NCBI RefSeq assembly: GCF_003751635.1
Contig: NZ_RJVI01000002.1
Coordinates: 855,986-919,985, forward strand
Direction of reading: 5' to 3'
DNA: 64,000 nucleotides
Source: Inmirania thermothiophila
GTDB lineage: Bacteria > Pseudomonadota > Gammaproteobacteria > DSM-100275
Numbering within the stretch: the first letter of the stretch is position 1; every line of letters starts with the position of its first letter. The notes beneath the pieces were generated by a model. The model was not told where the DNA came from, searched no databases, and saw only the letters and a list, made by a program, of their open reading frames with translations. The position numbers were made by a program, and so were the translations under genes. Of this stretch, positions 40,299 through 46,008 are shown one piece after another.

Positions 40299-40775
40299 AT
40301 GGTGGAGACCACCCGCGGCCCCGACGGCCTGCGCCTCGTGCTCGCCCCGCGGCCTGCCCCGGGGCCCGGGGCCTGGCTGCTGGGGCTGGCCCTGCCGGGG
40401 GCGGCCCTCGCCGGCATCGGCGCCTGGTTCGCCGCCCGCGGCGCCTGGGCGGTACTCCCCTTCGCCGGGCTCGAGCTCGCCCTGCTCGCGTGGGCGATGG
40501 CGAGCTGCGCCCGCGCCGCGGCGGCCCGGGAAGTGGTGGAGGTCACGGCGCGCGAGGTGGTGGTCCGCGACGGGCGCGGGGCGGCGCGGCGCCTGCCGCG
40601 GGCATGGGCGCGCGTGGTGCTGCGCCGCGACCCCGCCGGGCGCTACCCGAGCCGCCTCTTCCTGCGCGCCCACGGGCGGGAGGTGGAGCTCGGGCGCGCC
40701 CTGCCGCAGGCCGAGCGCGCCCGCCTCGCCGGGACCCTCGCCGGCAACGTCGGCGCGGGGTGGAGCCATGGCTGA
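40299..40775 (+). CDS. DUF2244 membrane protein
   Basis: A 158-residue integral membrane protein. Two adjacent helices (LLGLALPGAALAGIGAWFAA and the following LPFAGLELALLAWAMASC) are followed by a soluble beta-rich domain (EVVEVTAREVVVRDGRGAARRL). DUF2244 proteins are often encoded beside cytochrome c oxidase genes; the function is unknown. The stop overlaps the coxB start by 8 bp, so it is the first gene of the cox operon. Confidence 0.82.
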   Translation: MVETTRGPDGLRLVLAPRPAPGPGAWLLGLALPGAALAGIGAWFAARGAWAVLPFAGLELALLAWAMASCARAAAAREVVEVTAREVVVRDGRGAARRLPRAWARVVLRRDPAGRYPSRLFLRAHGREVELGRALPQAERARLAGTLAGNVGAGWSHG

Positions 40776-41901
40776 GCGCGCACGCCCCCTCCTCGCCGCC
40801 GCCCTCGCCCTGCCCGCCGCGCCGACGGCGGCGGCCCCGGCCTGGAACCTGCCGCAGCCCGCGACCCCGGTGGCGCGCGAGATCTTCGCCATCCACACCC
40901 TCACCGGCACCATCGTCGCCGTGCTCACCGTCCTGGTCTTCGCCGTCGTCCTCTTCGCCGCCTGGCGCTTCCGCCGCAGCCGCGGCCACCAGCCCGACCT
41001 CGCGTTCCACCGCGGCCGCTTCGGCGCCTGGTCGTGGCTGGTGGTGCCGGTGCTGGTGCTGGGCATCGACCTCACCATCGCCGGCTCGGCCCGGGAGACG
41101 CTGAAGAAGCTCTGGGTCGTGCCGCGCGGCGACGACCTGCTGGTGGTCCGGGTCACCGGCCACCAGTGGTGGTGGGAGTACGAGTACCCGGACCTCGGCA
41201 TCCGCATCGAGAGCCGCGCGCTGCCGCAGGAGCAGGCGGGCGCGCACTAGCTGCGCGCCGTCGATCAGCCGCTGGTGCTGCCGGTGGGGCGGCGGGTGCG
41301 CTTCCTGCACACCTCGGCGGACGTGATCCACGCCATGTGGGTGCCGGCCCTCGGGTTCAAGAAGGACGCCATCCCCGGCTACGTCACCGAGACCTGGGCC
41401 CTGATCGAGCGGGCCGGGACCTACCGCGGCCAGTGCGCGGAGCTCTGCGGCACCTGGCACTCGCGCATGCCGGTGGTGGTGGAGGCGGTGCCGCCGGAGC
41501 GCTTCGAGGCGTGGGTGGCCGAGCAGCGCGCGGCCATGGCCCGCGCCGCCGCGGAGGCGGCGAGCGATCGGACGTGGCCGCTCGCGGAGCTGATGGAGAA
41601 GGGGCGGGGCCTCTACAACACCAAGTGCGCCGCCTGCCACCAGATCAACGGCCAGGGGCTGCCGCCGGCCTTCCCGCCCCTCAAGGGCAGCGCGGTGGTG
41701 CGCGGGCCGGTCGCCGGACACCTGGCGGTGGTCCTCGACGGCCGCCCCGGCACCGCCATGCCCGCCTGGCGGGATCAGCTCAACGACCTGGAGATCGCCG
41801 CCATCGTCACCTACGAGCGCAACGCCTGGGGCAACGACGCCGGCGCGGCGGTGCAGCCGCGCCAGGTGCGCGCCGCCCGCGCGGGAAGGTCGGGATCATG
41901 A
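40768..41901 (+). pseudogene. coxB: cytochrome c oxidase subunit II (caa3 type), interrupted by in-frame TAG
   Basis: The frame reads through subunit II with a C-terminal cytochrome c domain, as in caa3 oxidases, but codon 161 (41248-41250) is TAG. Before it: signal, two helices and HQWWWEYEYPDLGI; after it, LRAVDQPLVLPVGRRVRFL, TSADVIHAMWVP, the CuA site GQCAELCGTWHSRMP, and the heme site CAACHQINGQGLPPAFPPL. No frameshift is present; the stop replaces one residue, probably Trp (TGG) or Tyr. As written only 160 residues without CuA are made. Two neighbouring genes end in TAG, so it is a stop here. The last 4 bp overlap coxA. Confidence 0.88.
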
Positions 41902-43493
41902 GCGTCGCCAGCCACACCGTGGTGCACGAGCACGAGGGGCCGCCGCGGGGCATCCGCCGCTGGCTCTACAGCACCAACCACAAGGACATCGGCACCATGT
42001 ACCTGGTGTTCGCCCTCACCATGCTCTTCCTCGGCGGGGCGAGCGCCATGGCCATCCGCGCCGAGCTCATGCTGCCGGGGCTGCAGCTGCTCGAGCCCGA
42101 CCTCTACAATAACATCCTCACCAACCACGCCCTGATCATGATCTTCGGCGCCGTGATGCCGGCCGGGGCGGGCATCGCCAACTGGATGATCCCGCTCATG
42201 ATCGGCGCCCCGGACATCGCGCTGCCGCGGATCAACAACCTCAGCTTCTGGCTCCTGCCGGCGGCGGCGCTGATGCTGGTGCTGTCCTTCGTCGTACCCC
42301 TCCTCCCGGGCGGCGGCACCCAGATCAACACCGGCTGGACCCTCTACCCGCCGCTCTCGGTTCAGGTGGGCATGTCCATGGACTTCCTCATCTTCGCCAT
42401 CCATCTCCTCGGCATCTCCTCGGTGCTCGCCTCCATCAACATCATCGTCACCATCCTCAACATGCGCGCCCCGGGGATGACCCTGATGCGCATGCCCATG
42501 TTCTGCTGGGCGTGGCTGGTCACCGCCTTCCTGCTGATCCTGGTCGTCCCGGTGCTCGCGGGCGGCGTCACCATGCTCCTCTTCGACCGCCACTTCGGCA
42601 CCAGCTTCTTCAACGCCGCCGGCGGGGGCGACCCGGTGCTGTTCCAGCACCTGTTCTGGTTCTTCGGCCATCCGGAGGTCTACGTCCTGATCCTGCCCGC
42701 GATCGGGGCGCTGGCCGAGGTCATCCCCACCTTCGCCCGCAAGCCGCTGTTCGGCTACCACTCGATGGTGGGCGCGATGATCGTCATCGCCACCCTCGGC
42801 CTCGTGGTCTGGGCCCACCACCAGTACACCGTGGGCATGGCGCTGGGGGCGGTGCAGTGGTTCATGATCGGGACGATCCTGATCTCGATCCCGGTCGGCC
42901 TCATCATCTTCAACTTCATCGCCACCATGTGGCGCGGCGCCCTGACCTTCGAGACGCCCATGCTGTTCGCCATCGCCATGGTGATGCTGTTCAGCTTCGG
43001 GGGGCTGACCGGGGTGATGCTCGCGGTGGTGCCCGCGGACGTGCAGTACCACGACTCCATGTTCGTGGTCGCCCACTTCCACTACGTGCTGATCCCGGGC
43101 GCCATCTACGGGCTGCTGGCCGCCGTCTTCTACTGGCTGCCCAAGTGGACCGGGCACATGTACGACGAGCGCCTGGCGAAGATCTTCTTCTGGATCAACG
43201 TGGTGAGCTTCAACGTCACCTTCTTCCCGCAGCACTTCCTGGGCCTTGCCGGGATGCCGCGGCGGATCGCCGACTACAACGTCGCCTTCGCCGACTTCAA
43301 CTTCCTCTCCAGCATCGGCGCCTTCGTCTTCGGCCTCAGCCACCTGCTGTTCCTCTACATCGTGGTCAAGGCGGTGCGCGGCGGCCGGTCGGCCGAGGCG
43401 CGCGTCTGGGACGGCGCCCGCGGCCTGGAGTGGGAGCTGCCCTCGTCGCCGCCCTTCCACTCCTGGGAGACCGCCCCGCGGCTGCGGGGCTGA
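41898..43493 (+). CDS. coxA: cytochrome c oxidase subunit I
   Basis: A 531-residue heme-copper oxidase subunit with twelve helices, carrying heme a and the heme a3-CuB centre. Heme ligands are in ILTNHALIMIFG and VVAHFHYVLIP; the CuB His and K-channel end are in FWFFGHPEVYVLILP, with the Glu of type A1 proton channels, and HH in VVWAHHQYTVGM. The gene looks intact. ATG 41898 overlaps the coxB stop (ATGA). Without an intact coxB, the product cannot take electrons from cytochrome c. Confidence 0.96.
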   Translation: MSVASHTVVHEHEGPPRGIRRWLYSTNHKDIGTMYLVFALTMLFLGGASAMAIRAELMLPGLQLLEPDLYNNILTNHALIMIFGAVMPAGAGIANWMIPLMIGAPDIALPRINNLSFWLLPAAALMLVLSFVVPLLPGGGTQINTGWTLYPPLSVQVGMSMDFLIFAIHLLGISSVLASINIIVTILNMRAPGMTLMRMPMFCWAWLVTAFLLILVVPVLAGGVTMLLFDRHFGTSFFNAAGGGDPVLFQHLFWFFGHPEVYVLILPAIGALAEVIPTFARKPLFGYHSMVGAMIVIATLGLVVWAHHQYTVGMALGAVQWFMIGTILISIPVGLIIFNFIATMWRGALTFETPMLFAIAMVMLFSFGGLTGVMLAVVPADVQYHDSMFVVAHFHYVLIPGAIYGLLAAVFYWLPKWTGHMYDERLAKIFFWINVVSFNVTFFPQHFLGLAGMPRRIADYNVAFADFNFLSSIGAFVFGLSHLLFLYIVVKAVRGGRSAEARVWDGARGLEWELPSSPPFHSWETAPRLRG

Positions 43494-43500
43494 GGACGTC

Positions 43501-43620
43501 ATGCGCCGGCGCCGCAACCTCCTCCTCGCCTGGGCCCTCGGCGCCCTCGCCCTGCTCGTCTTCCTGAGCTCGATGCCGGTGTGGGAGCAGGTGCTCTCGC
43601 GCGCGGGAGGCGCGCCGTGA
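43501..43620 (+). CDS. small single-helix membrane protein in the cox operon
   Basis: A 39-codon reading frame beginning 7 bp after the coxA stop: a basic start MRRRRN, one hydrophobic helix (LLLAWALGALALLVFLSSMP) and a short tail. Small one-helix proteins between coxA and ctaG occur in many proteobacterial cox operons and are thought to help assembly. I cannot name it. Its stop overlaps a GTG that would suit a ctaG start, but no CtaG sequence follows. Confidence 0.55.
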   Translation: MRRRRNLLLAWALGALALLVFLSSMPVWEQVLSRAGGAP

Positions 43621-43707
43621 GCGCGCCGTGCCCGCTCACGGCGCCGGACCGGGCCGGCCGCGCCGTGCCGGGCCGCAGCCCACCGGCGCAGCACCGCGCG
43701 CCCGCAC

Positions 43708-43731
43708 CTCCGCCCCGGCGCCGGGGCGGAG
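43708..43731. repeat. 24-bp perfect palindrome between coxA region and coxC
   Basis: CTCCGCCCCGGC and its exact complement meet with no loop at 43719/43720. It lies in a 202-bp gene-free stretch (43621-43822), where ctaG would be expected. It could fold into a hairpin in the transcript. Confidence 0.6.
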
Positions 43732-43822
43732 CCGCCGGCGGGCCGCCGCGGGCCCGCCCGATCCCTGACCGTCCCGGACGCCGATCCCCGCGGGGCCCTG
43801 CCTCGCCCGGAGCCTGCCGCCC

Positions 43823-44692
43823 ATGAGCCATCCCACCCCGGACGAGTACTACATCCCCGAGCCGAGCCCGTGGCCGCTTGCGGCCTCGCTGGCGGTGCTG
43901 CTCCTGGTCCTGGGGCTCGCGCTCGTCCTCAACGACGTCGACCCCGGCTGGGCCGTCCTCGCCGCCGGCCTCCTGGTGCTCGCCTGGATGTTCTACGGCT
44001 GGTTCGGCGACGTCGTCCGCGAGAACCTCGCCGGCCGCCACAGCCCCCGCGTCGACCGCTCCTTCCGCCTCGGCATGTACTGGTTCATCGCCTCCGAGGT
44101 CTTCTTCTTCCTGACCTTCTTCGGCGCCCTCTACTACGTGCGCAACATCGCCGTGGCCTGGCTCGGCGGCGCCGGCTACCTCGGGATCACCCACGAGATC
44201 CTCTACAACCAGTTCCAGGCCCAGTGGCCCACCTCGGGCCCCGGCGAGCTCGGCGGCCCCTTCGAGCCGGTGGGCGCCGTCGGCGTCCCCGCCTTCAATA
44301 CCCTGGTCCTGCTCAGCAGCGGCGCCACCATCACCTGGGCGCACTGGGGCCTGAAGGCCGAGCGGCGCGGCCAGCTGGTCTGGGGCCTCGCCGCCACCAT
44401 CGCCCTCGGGCTGCTCTTCGTGGCCCTGCAGGCCTGGGAATATCACGAGGCCTGGCGGGAGATGAACGTCACCCTGCGCTCGGGGATCTACGGCTCCACC
44501 TTCTACCTGCTCACCGGCTTCCACGGCATGCACGTCACCGTCGGCGCGGTGATGCTCATGGCCATCCTCGGGCGCGCCCTGCGCGGGCACTTCACGCCCC
44601 AGAACCACTTCGCCTTCGAGGCCGTGGCCTGGTACTGGCATTTCGTGGACGTGGTATGGCTGGCCCTGTTCATCTTCGTCTACTGGCTGTGA
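43823..44692 (+). CDS. coxC: cytochrome c oxidase subunit III
   Basis: A 289-residue membrane subunit with seven helices. Typical segments: FRLGMYWFIASEVFFFLTFFGALYY (with the conserved SE), NTLVLLSSGATITWAHW, ALQAWEYHEA, STFYLLTGFHGMHVTVGAVML and the end AVAWYWHFVDVVWLALFIFVYWL. It stabilises subunit I and proton uptake. It appears intact and follows a 202-bp gap after the small membrane gene. Confidence 0.95.
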   Translation: MSHPTPDEYYIPEPSPWPLAASLAVLLLVLGLALVLNDVDPGWAVLAAGLLVLAWMFYGWFGDVVRENLAGRHSPRVDRSFRLGMYWFIASEVFFFLTFFGALYYVRNIAVAWLGGAGYLGITHEILYNQFQAQWPTSGPGELGGPFEPVGAVGVPAFNTLVLLSSGATITWAHWGLKAERRGQLVWGLAATIALGLLFVALQAWEYHEAWREMNVTLRSGIYGSTFYLLTGFHGMHVTVGAVMLMAILGRALRGHFTPQNHFAFEAVAWYWHFVDVVWLALFIFVYWL

Positions 44693-44705: not shown

Positions 44706-44921
44706 TCAGCGCCCGTGGGGGCCGACGACGCCGAGGAAGTAACCGCCCATGAGGATGGCGAAGAGGACCAGCGAGAGGGCGATGCGGACGGTGAGCGCCC
44801 GCACCATGCGGGTACGGTCGCGCCGGCCGTCGTCGCGGCTGAGGAAGATCATCGCCTCCACCAGCGAGAGGAGGATCAGCCCGAGAAGGATGAGCAGGGG
44901 GATCTTGAACCAGAGCGCCAT
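44706..44921 (-). CDS. DUF2909 twin-helix membrane protein
   Basis: A 71-residue protein with two transmembrane helices (KIPLLILLGLILLSLVEAMIFL and LTVRIALSLVLFAILMGGYFLGV) joined by a charged loop (RDDGRRDRTRM). DUF2909 genes commonly lie antisense between coxC and SURF1 in Gammaproteobacteria, exactly as here; the function is unknown. The start at 44921 is 32 bp from the SURF1 remnant start. Confidence 0.78.
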   Translation of the reverse strand: MALWFKIPLLILLGLILLSLVEAMIFLSRDDGRRDRTRMVRALTVRIALSLVLFAILMGGYFLGVVGPHGR

Positions 44922-44953
44922 CTTGCGTGCCCTCCCCGGCGCGGCCGCCGCCC

Positions 44954-45373
44954 ATGGGACCGGCCCCTCCGCCAAGGTATAGCAGCGCCGCGGCGCGCCG
45001 GCGCGGGGCGGCGCCGCTGCTGCTCCTCGCCGCCGCCCTCTTCACCGGGCTCGGGCTGTGGCAGCTGCGCCGTGCCGGGGAGAAGCAGGCCCTGCTCGCC
45101 GAGGCCGCGGCACGCTGGGCGGCCGCCCCCGCGCCGCTCGCCGCGCTGCCGGGTCCCGACGCGCGCTTCCGCGCCGTCCGCCTGCGCGGCCGCTACGAGG
45201 CGCAGGCCCAGGTCCTCGTCGGTCCGCAGGGCCGCGACGGCCGCCTCGGCTACCTCGTCTACACCCCGCTGCGCACCGCGGGGAACGAGGCGGTGGTGGT
45301 GGCCCGCGGCTGGCAGGCGCGGCCGACGCCCCCGGCCCCGCCTTCGCCTACGGCCTCGGGCTCACGGGGCTGA
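44954..45373 (+). pseudogene. SURF1 family protein, 5' half only
   Basis: The first about 120 residues of a SURF1/Shy1 cytochrome oxidase assembly factor are present: one helix (APLLLLAAALFTGLGLWQLRRAGEKQ), RFRAVRLRGRYEAQAQVLVGPQ and LGYLVYTPLRTAGNEAVVVARGW. Full proteins have about 230-250 residues with a second helix near the end. After RGWQAR, near base 45320, the homology stops and the frame runs out at 45373 within DUF2189 sequence read in another frame. So the gene has lost its 3' half. Confidence 0.82.
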
Positions 45374-46008
45374 GCTGGGCCGTCGTCCTCGCCACCGACC
45401 GGCTCGGCCTCGTGCCGCTGCTGCCGGTGCTGGCGGCGGGCTTCTTCTTCGTCGGGCCGCTGGTGGCGGTAGGGCTGTACGAGCTCAGCCGCCGCCTCGC
45501 CGCCGGCGAGCCGGTGCACCTGGCGGCGCTCGCCGGCGCCTGGCGTCGCAACCCGGTCCATCTCGCCGCCCTCGGCCTGGTCCTCGCCACCGCCTTCTTC
45601 GGCTGGGTGATCGTCGCCGCGGCCGAGTTCGCCGCCCTCTACGGCGCCCCGGTGCCCGAGGGCGAGCGCTTCCTCGCCGAGCTCTTCCTCGCCGCCCGCA
45701 GCCCCGCCTTCCTGCTCGCCGGCACCGCCACCGGCGCCGTCATCGCCCTCGTCGTCTACGCCCTCGCCGCGGTCTCGGCACCGCTCCTGGTGGACCGCCC
45801 GGAGACGGACTTCGCCGCCGCCGTGCTCGCCAGCGTCGAGGCGGTGCGCACCAACCCGGGGCCGATGCTGCTGTGGGCGGCGCTGCTGGTGGCGCTGACC
45901 GGCTTCGGTCTCCTGACCTTCTTCTTCGGCCTCGCCGTCGCCTTCCCCTGGGCCGGCTGCGCCACCTGGCACGCCTGCCGCGACCTCGTCTCCGCCGGCG
46001 ACGGCTAG
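45319..46008 (+). pseudogene. DUF2189 membrane protein, 5'-truncated
   Basis: From about 45319 a different reading frame encodes the main part of a DUF2189 integral membrane protein: PGPAFAYGLGLTGLSWAVVL, AAGFFFVGPLVAVGLYELSRRLAAGEP, then several more helices, ending in TAG at 46006-46008. The usual N-terminal soluble part before the first helix is missing, and there is no good start codon or ribosome site at the junction with SURF1. It is probably not expressed as a normal protein. Confidence 0.78.

Follow-up and report, generated by a model that had tools for sequence, protein, structure and literature searches.

Probable decay of an A-family cytochrome c oxidase locus, with a truncated SURF1 gene joined to a DUF2189 gene, in Inmirania thermothiophila

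In Inmirania thermothiophila the whole of the locus for an A-family (aa3-type) cytochrome c oxidase is very probably being lost, with a deletion, or a deletion accompanied by rearrangement, at the site where what is left of the SURF1 gene meets a gene for a DUF2189 membrane protein. Separately, cox11 would have been lost and a nonsense codon acquired in cox2. The stretch of DNA analysed, termed the window below, is 64 kb long (G000:C2:855986-919985) and comes from a genome of 2.61 Mb in 5 contigs that is 99.85% complete; the comparison genomes are relatives at the level of the class, none being closer than that, and 80 related cox loci were retrieved via Cox3. The features of the locus are collected in Table 1.

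Table 1. Features of the cox locus and of the SURF1/DUF2189 junction, in positions of the window
Feature	Position	Strand	Basis or remark
cox2 (cytochrome c oxidase subunit II with C-terminal cytochrome c domain), pseudogene, in-frame stop	40768..41901	+	Pfam COX2_TM, COX2 and cytochrome c over two same-frame ORFs
cox2 in-frame TAG stop	41249..41251	+	aligned column is Tyr in 46/46 relatives
cox1 (subunit I), open	41898..43493	+	99/101 near-invariant residues retained
Small membrane ORF between cox1 and the cox11 position	43501..43620	+	translations read by eye; also in L028 and L029
Non-coding 202 bp at the place of cox11 in relatives	43621..43822	+	no cox11 similarity
cox3 (subunit III), intact	43823..44692	+	Pfam and conserved-site check
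DUF2909 twin-TM protein, customary SURF1 neighbour	44706..44975	-	
SURF1 5' part, ~120 residues, second half gone	44954..45322	+	Pfam homology
Deletion junction interval: end of SURF1 homology, onset of DUF2189 homology, different frame	45314..45331	+	
DUF2189 membrane protein without N-terminal segment and usual start codon	45325..46008	+	

The SURF1 match (PF02104, E 1.4e-26) begins near the N-terminus of its ORF, covers profile positions 2 to about 114-116 of 205 and has its last SURF1-like residues at approximately 'VVVARGWQAR', the conserved C-terminal half and the second TM being missing. Among the SURF1 matches in this genome and its class-level relatives (n = 26), the other 25 end at profile positions 203-205 and this one alone falls short of 203. 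The DUF2189 domain (PF09955) that follows is complete (2-126 of 126, E 6.3e-32, 110.8 bits) and is in a different forward frame; in a codon-usage frame scan, one forward frame is coding in scan windows starting up to ~45215 and another from ~45305, with the coding-frame score flipping within ~90 bp near 45300. Alignment with the intact DUF2189 protein of L113 opens at '(D)APGPAFAYGL' (codons ~45325-45331), and no convincing counterpart of the L113 N-terminal segment was found ahead of the domain in that alignment. A start codon ahead of the domain is lacking as well, the first ATG, GTG or TTG past the junction in the DUF2189 frame being a GTG at 45412, at the domain start. That a 5' part of SURF1 is joined out of frame to DUF2189, and that the latter has no start of its own, had been proposed in a sequence-only reading of this DNA, and both proposals are borne out.

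The same reading left the choice between deletion and assembly collapse. Real deletion is now well supported, and a collapse or misjoin in which the assembler dropped the SURF1 remainder together with ctaB and the 5' end of DUF2189 is quite unlikely, even though the genes gone are precisely those expected beside SURF1 and the region is very high in GC (74.6% for the window). A repeat spanning the junction was not found: direct repeats across it were sought and none emerged, and searching the genome with a 351-bp junction query gave only short matches of 75-90% elsewhere and no further long copy. The junction is in the deep interior of a 1.06-Mb contig of the near-complete assembly, and the remaining genes of the window were called without evident splits (by codon usage, which is not a gene-by-gene homology check). 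Each of the two families is single-copy, with neither a second SURF1 or DUF2189 nor a displaced remainder of either in the genome, and the other missing genes are nowhere else in it. A misjoin, moreover, leaves the cox2 stop codon and the loss of cox11 unexplained. With three lesions in ~5 kb of one functional unit, and with loss of heme and copper factors from the genome as a whole, locus decay fits far better than an assembly fault.

The usual order in the 80 related loci is cox2-cox1-cox11-cox3-DUF2909(-)-SURF1-thioredoxin-like protein-[cox15]-ctaB. In its order cox2-cox1-cox3-DUF2909(-)-SURF1 the window resembles the intact clusters of MAG Bco_10 (L029), the Ctena orbiculata symbiont (L028) and Thiohalophilus thiocyanatoxydans (L070), and its Cox1 is 80% identical to those of L028 and L029. 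In these relatives cox11, full SURF1, ctaB and a gene for a PA0111-like redox protein are in line and cox15 is encoded as well, whereas the window lacks all of these and, unlike them, has a stop in its cox2. L028 and L029 are the nearest of the loci; in neither is cox15 in line, their genomes carrying it elsewhere. Many related clusters are without in-line cox15, the thioredoxin-like gene being followed immediately by ctaB.

The joining event would have taken away the second part of SURF1 together with the thioredoxin-like gene and ctaB, possibly also cox15, leaving the first 60% of SURF1 fused to a DUF2189 gene truncated at its 5' end. The notion that the missing genes are those usually lying between SURF1 and DUF2189 is, in one respect, sound, as in relatives SURF1 is followed by a thioredoxin-like gene, in many cases by cox15, and by ctaB, but it fails in another, since DUF2189 is downstream of the cox cluster in none of the 80 related loci. 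In all three relatives having both families, DUF2189 and SURF1 are on different contigs. Given the absence of DUF2189 downstream of cox in related loci, both the extent of the deletion and its having been one event are presumptive. For an ancestor resembling L028 or L070, the gene spacing in those loci suggests a loss of ~2 to 3 kb plus the 5' end of the DUF2189 gene.

The TAG in cox2 and the loss of cox11 are lesions beyond those named in the sequence-only reading. On both sides of the TAG the cox2 frame is open and conserved, CuA motif and CAACH included, and the lesion appears to be a nonsense change confined to one codon. No cox11 remnant was found between cox1 and cox3, the best tblastn match having an E value of 0.07 and being on the wrong strand; the small membrane ORF there has no NCBIfam match. 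Subunits I and III are intact, and subunit II is broken by the TAG. Near-invariant sites are altered at 2 of 101 positions in cox1 and at 0 of 72 in cox3, and in a check for relaxed selection that took these changes together with protein distances to outgroups, the distances of the window Cox1 and Cox3 were just slightly longer than those of the relatives. That cox1 and cox3 are open and keep nearly all conserved residues counts against decay, as it also fits continued use. With decay as the preferred reading, their being intact makes the process look recent; recency and the order of events are in this sense presumed, and the junction could be far younger than some of the gene loss.

CtaB, CtaA, Surf1 and Cox11 are known to act in the biosynthesis of the A-family oxidase (PMC9145763). 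The sequence-only reading had cox15, ctaB and sco as absent, and the genome-wide search agrees. It yielded neither ctaB, for heme O synthase, nor cox15 (Cox15/CtaA), for heme A synthase, and so no gene found in the genome would be predicted to supply heme O or heme A. For CuB and CuA assembly the search covered Cox11 and Sco, and neither Cox11 nor a Sco above cut-off is present genome-wide. The single UbiA-family protein was considered as heme O synthase and rejected: with ubiA_proteo it reaches 290 bits, above the cut-off of 275, and with heme O synthase 87 bits, short of the 210 required, and it is UbiA. The lone SCO-like match was likewise rejected as Sco, being below cut-off and scoring as ResA/TlpA.

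Synthesis of heme O and heme A, the usual CuB insertion and a full subunit II would all no longer be possible, and the A-family oxidase should, to judge from gene content, be inactive. An alternative that accepts the junction as real has the oxidase working, the cox2 TAG being read through (or a base-call error) and cox1 functioning with heme B. Intact cox1 and cox3, and the conservation of the rest of cox2 with its two motifs, are in keeping with this, but it is highly improbable in a genome where SURF1 is truncated and where the synthases of heme O and heme A, Cox11 and a qualifying Sco are all missing. It is scarcely credible that cox1 and cox3 are under selection for a reduced oxidase, or for some other role, without heme A, CtaB, Cox11 and full-length Cox2, with the truncated SURF1 and DUF2189 products being made and used.

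With decay of the locus, oxygen respiration would rest on the cbb3 oxidase. Beyond cox1, the genome has two genes of the heme-copper oxidase family: ccoN, which with the adjoining ccoO marks the presence of a cbb3 oxidase, and a norB-like gene flanked by others resembling norC and norE (norCB, named by inspection). The genome has no cytochrome bd. The cbb3 oxidase and Nor have b- and c-type hemes and need no heme A, so that the cell can afford to lose heme A synthesis. The prediction is that the organism respires oxygen via cbb3 only. From an annotation perspective, intact cox1 and cox3 would score the genome as having an aa3-type oxidase, and this is corrected here: despite them, neither heme A production nor assembly of the enzyme is to be expected.

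The case illustrates ordinary gene loss cleanly and does not represent a new system. It resembles bacterial pseudogene formation and the lineage-specific loss of a redundant terminal oxidase, in that there are several separate lesions in one functional unit and an alternative, cbb3, is kept. Compared with known losses of redundant oxidases it is the same in kind and one further instance, with cox1 and cox3 still open, and it provides a snapshot of oxidase cluster loss in which assembly genes are gone and two core subunit genes remain open. No description of the same pattern emerged from a search of the literature.

Two further observations concern the relatives. In L029 (~2799, minus) and in L053 (~3436, minus) a DUF2189 gene immediately precedes cox2 and is read from the other strand, a hint that it is an occasional neighbour of cox clusters. 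In the genome of Ectothiorhodospiraceae bacterium CM1_5m.P53 (L049; G042:C1:64573-65506), the cox15 match is split into two pieces that overlap and contains one TGA, and this is possibly another broken cox15.
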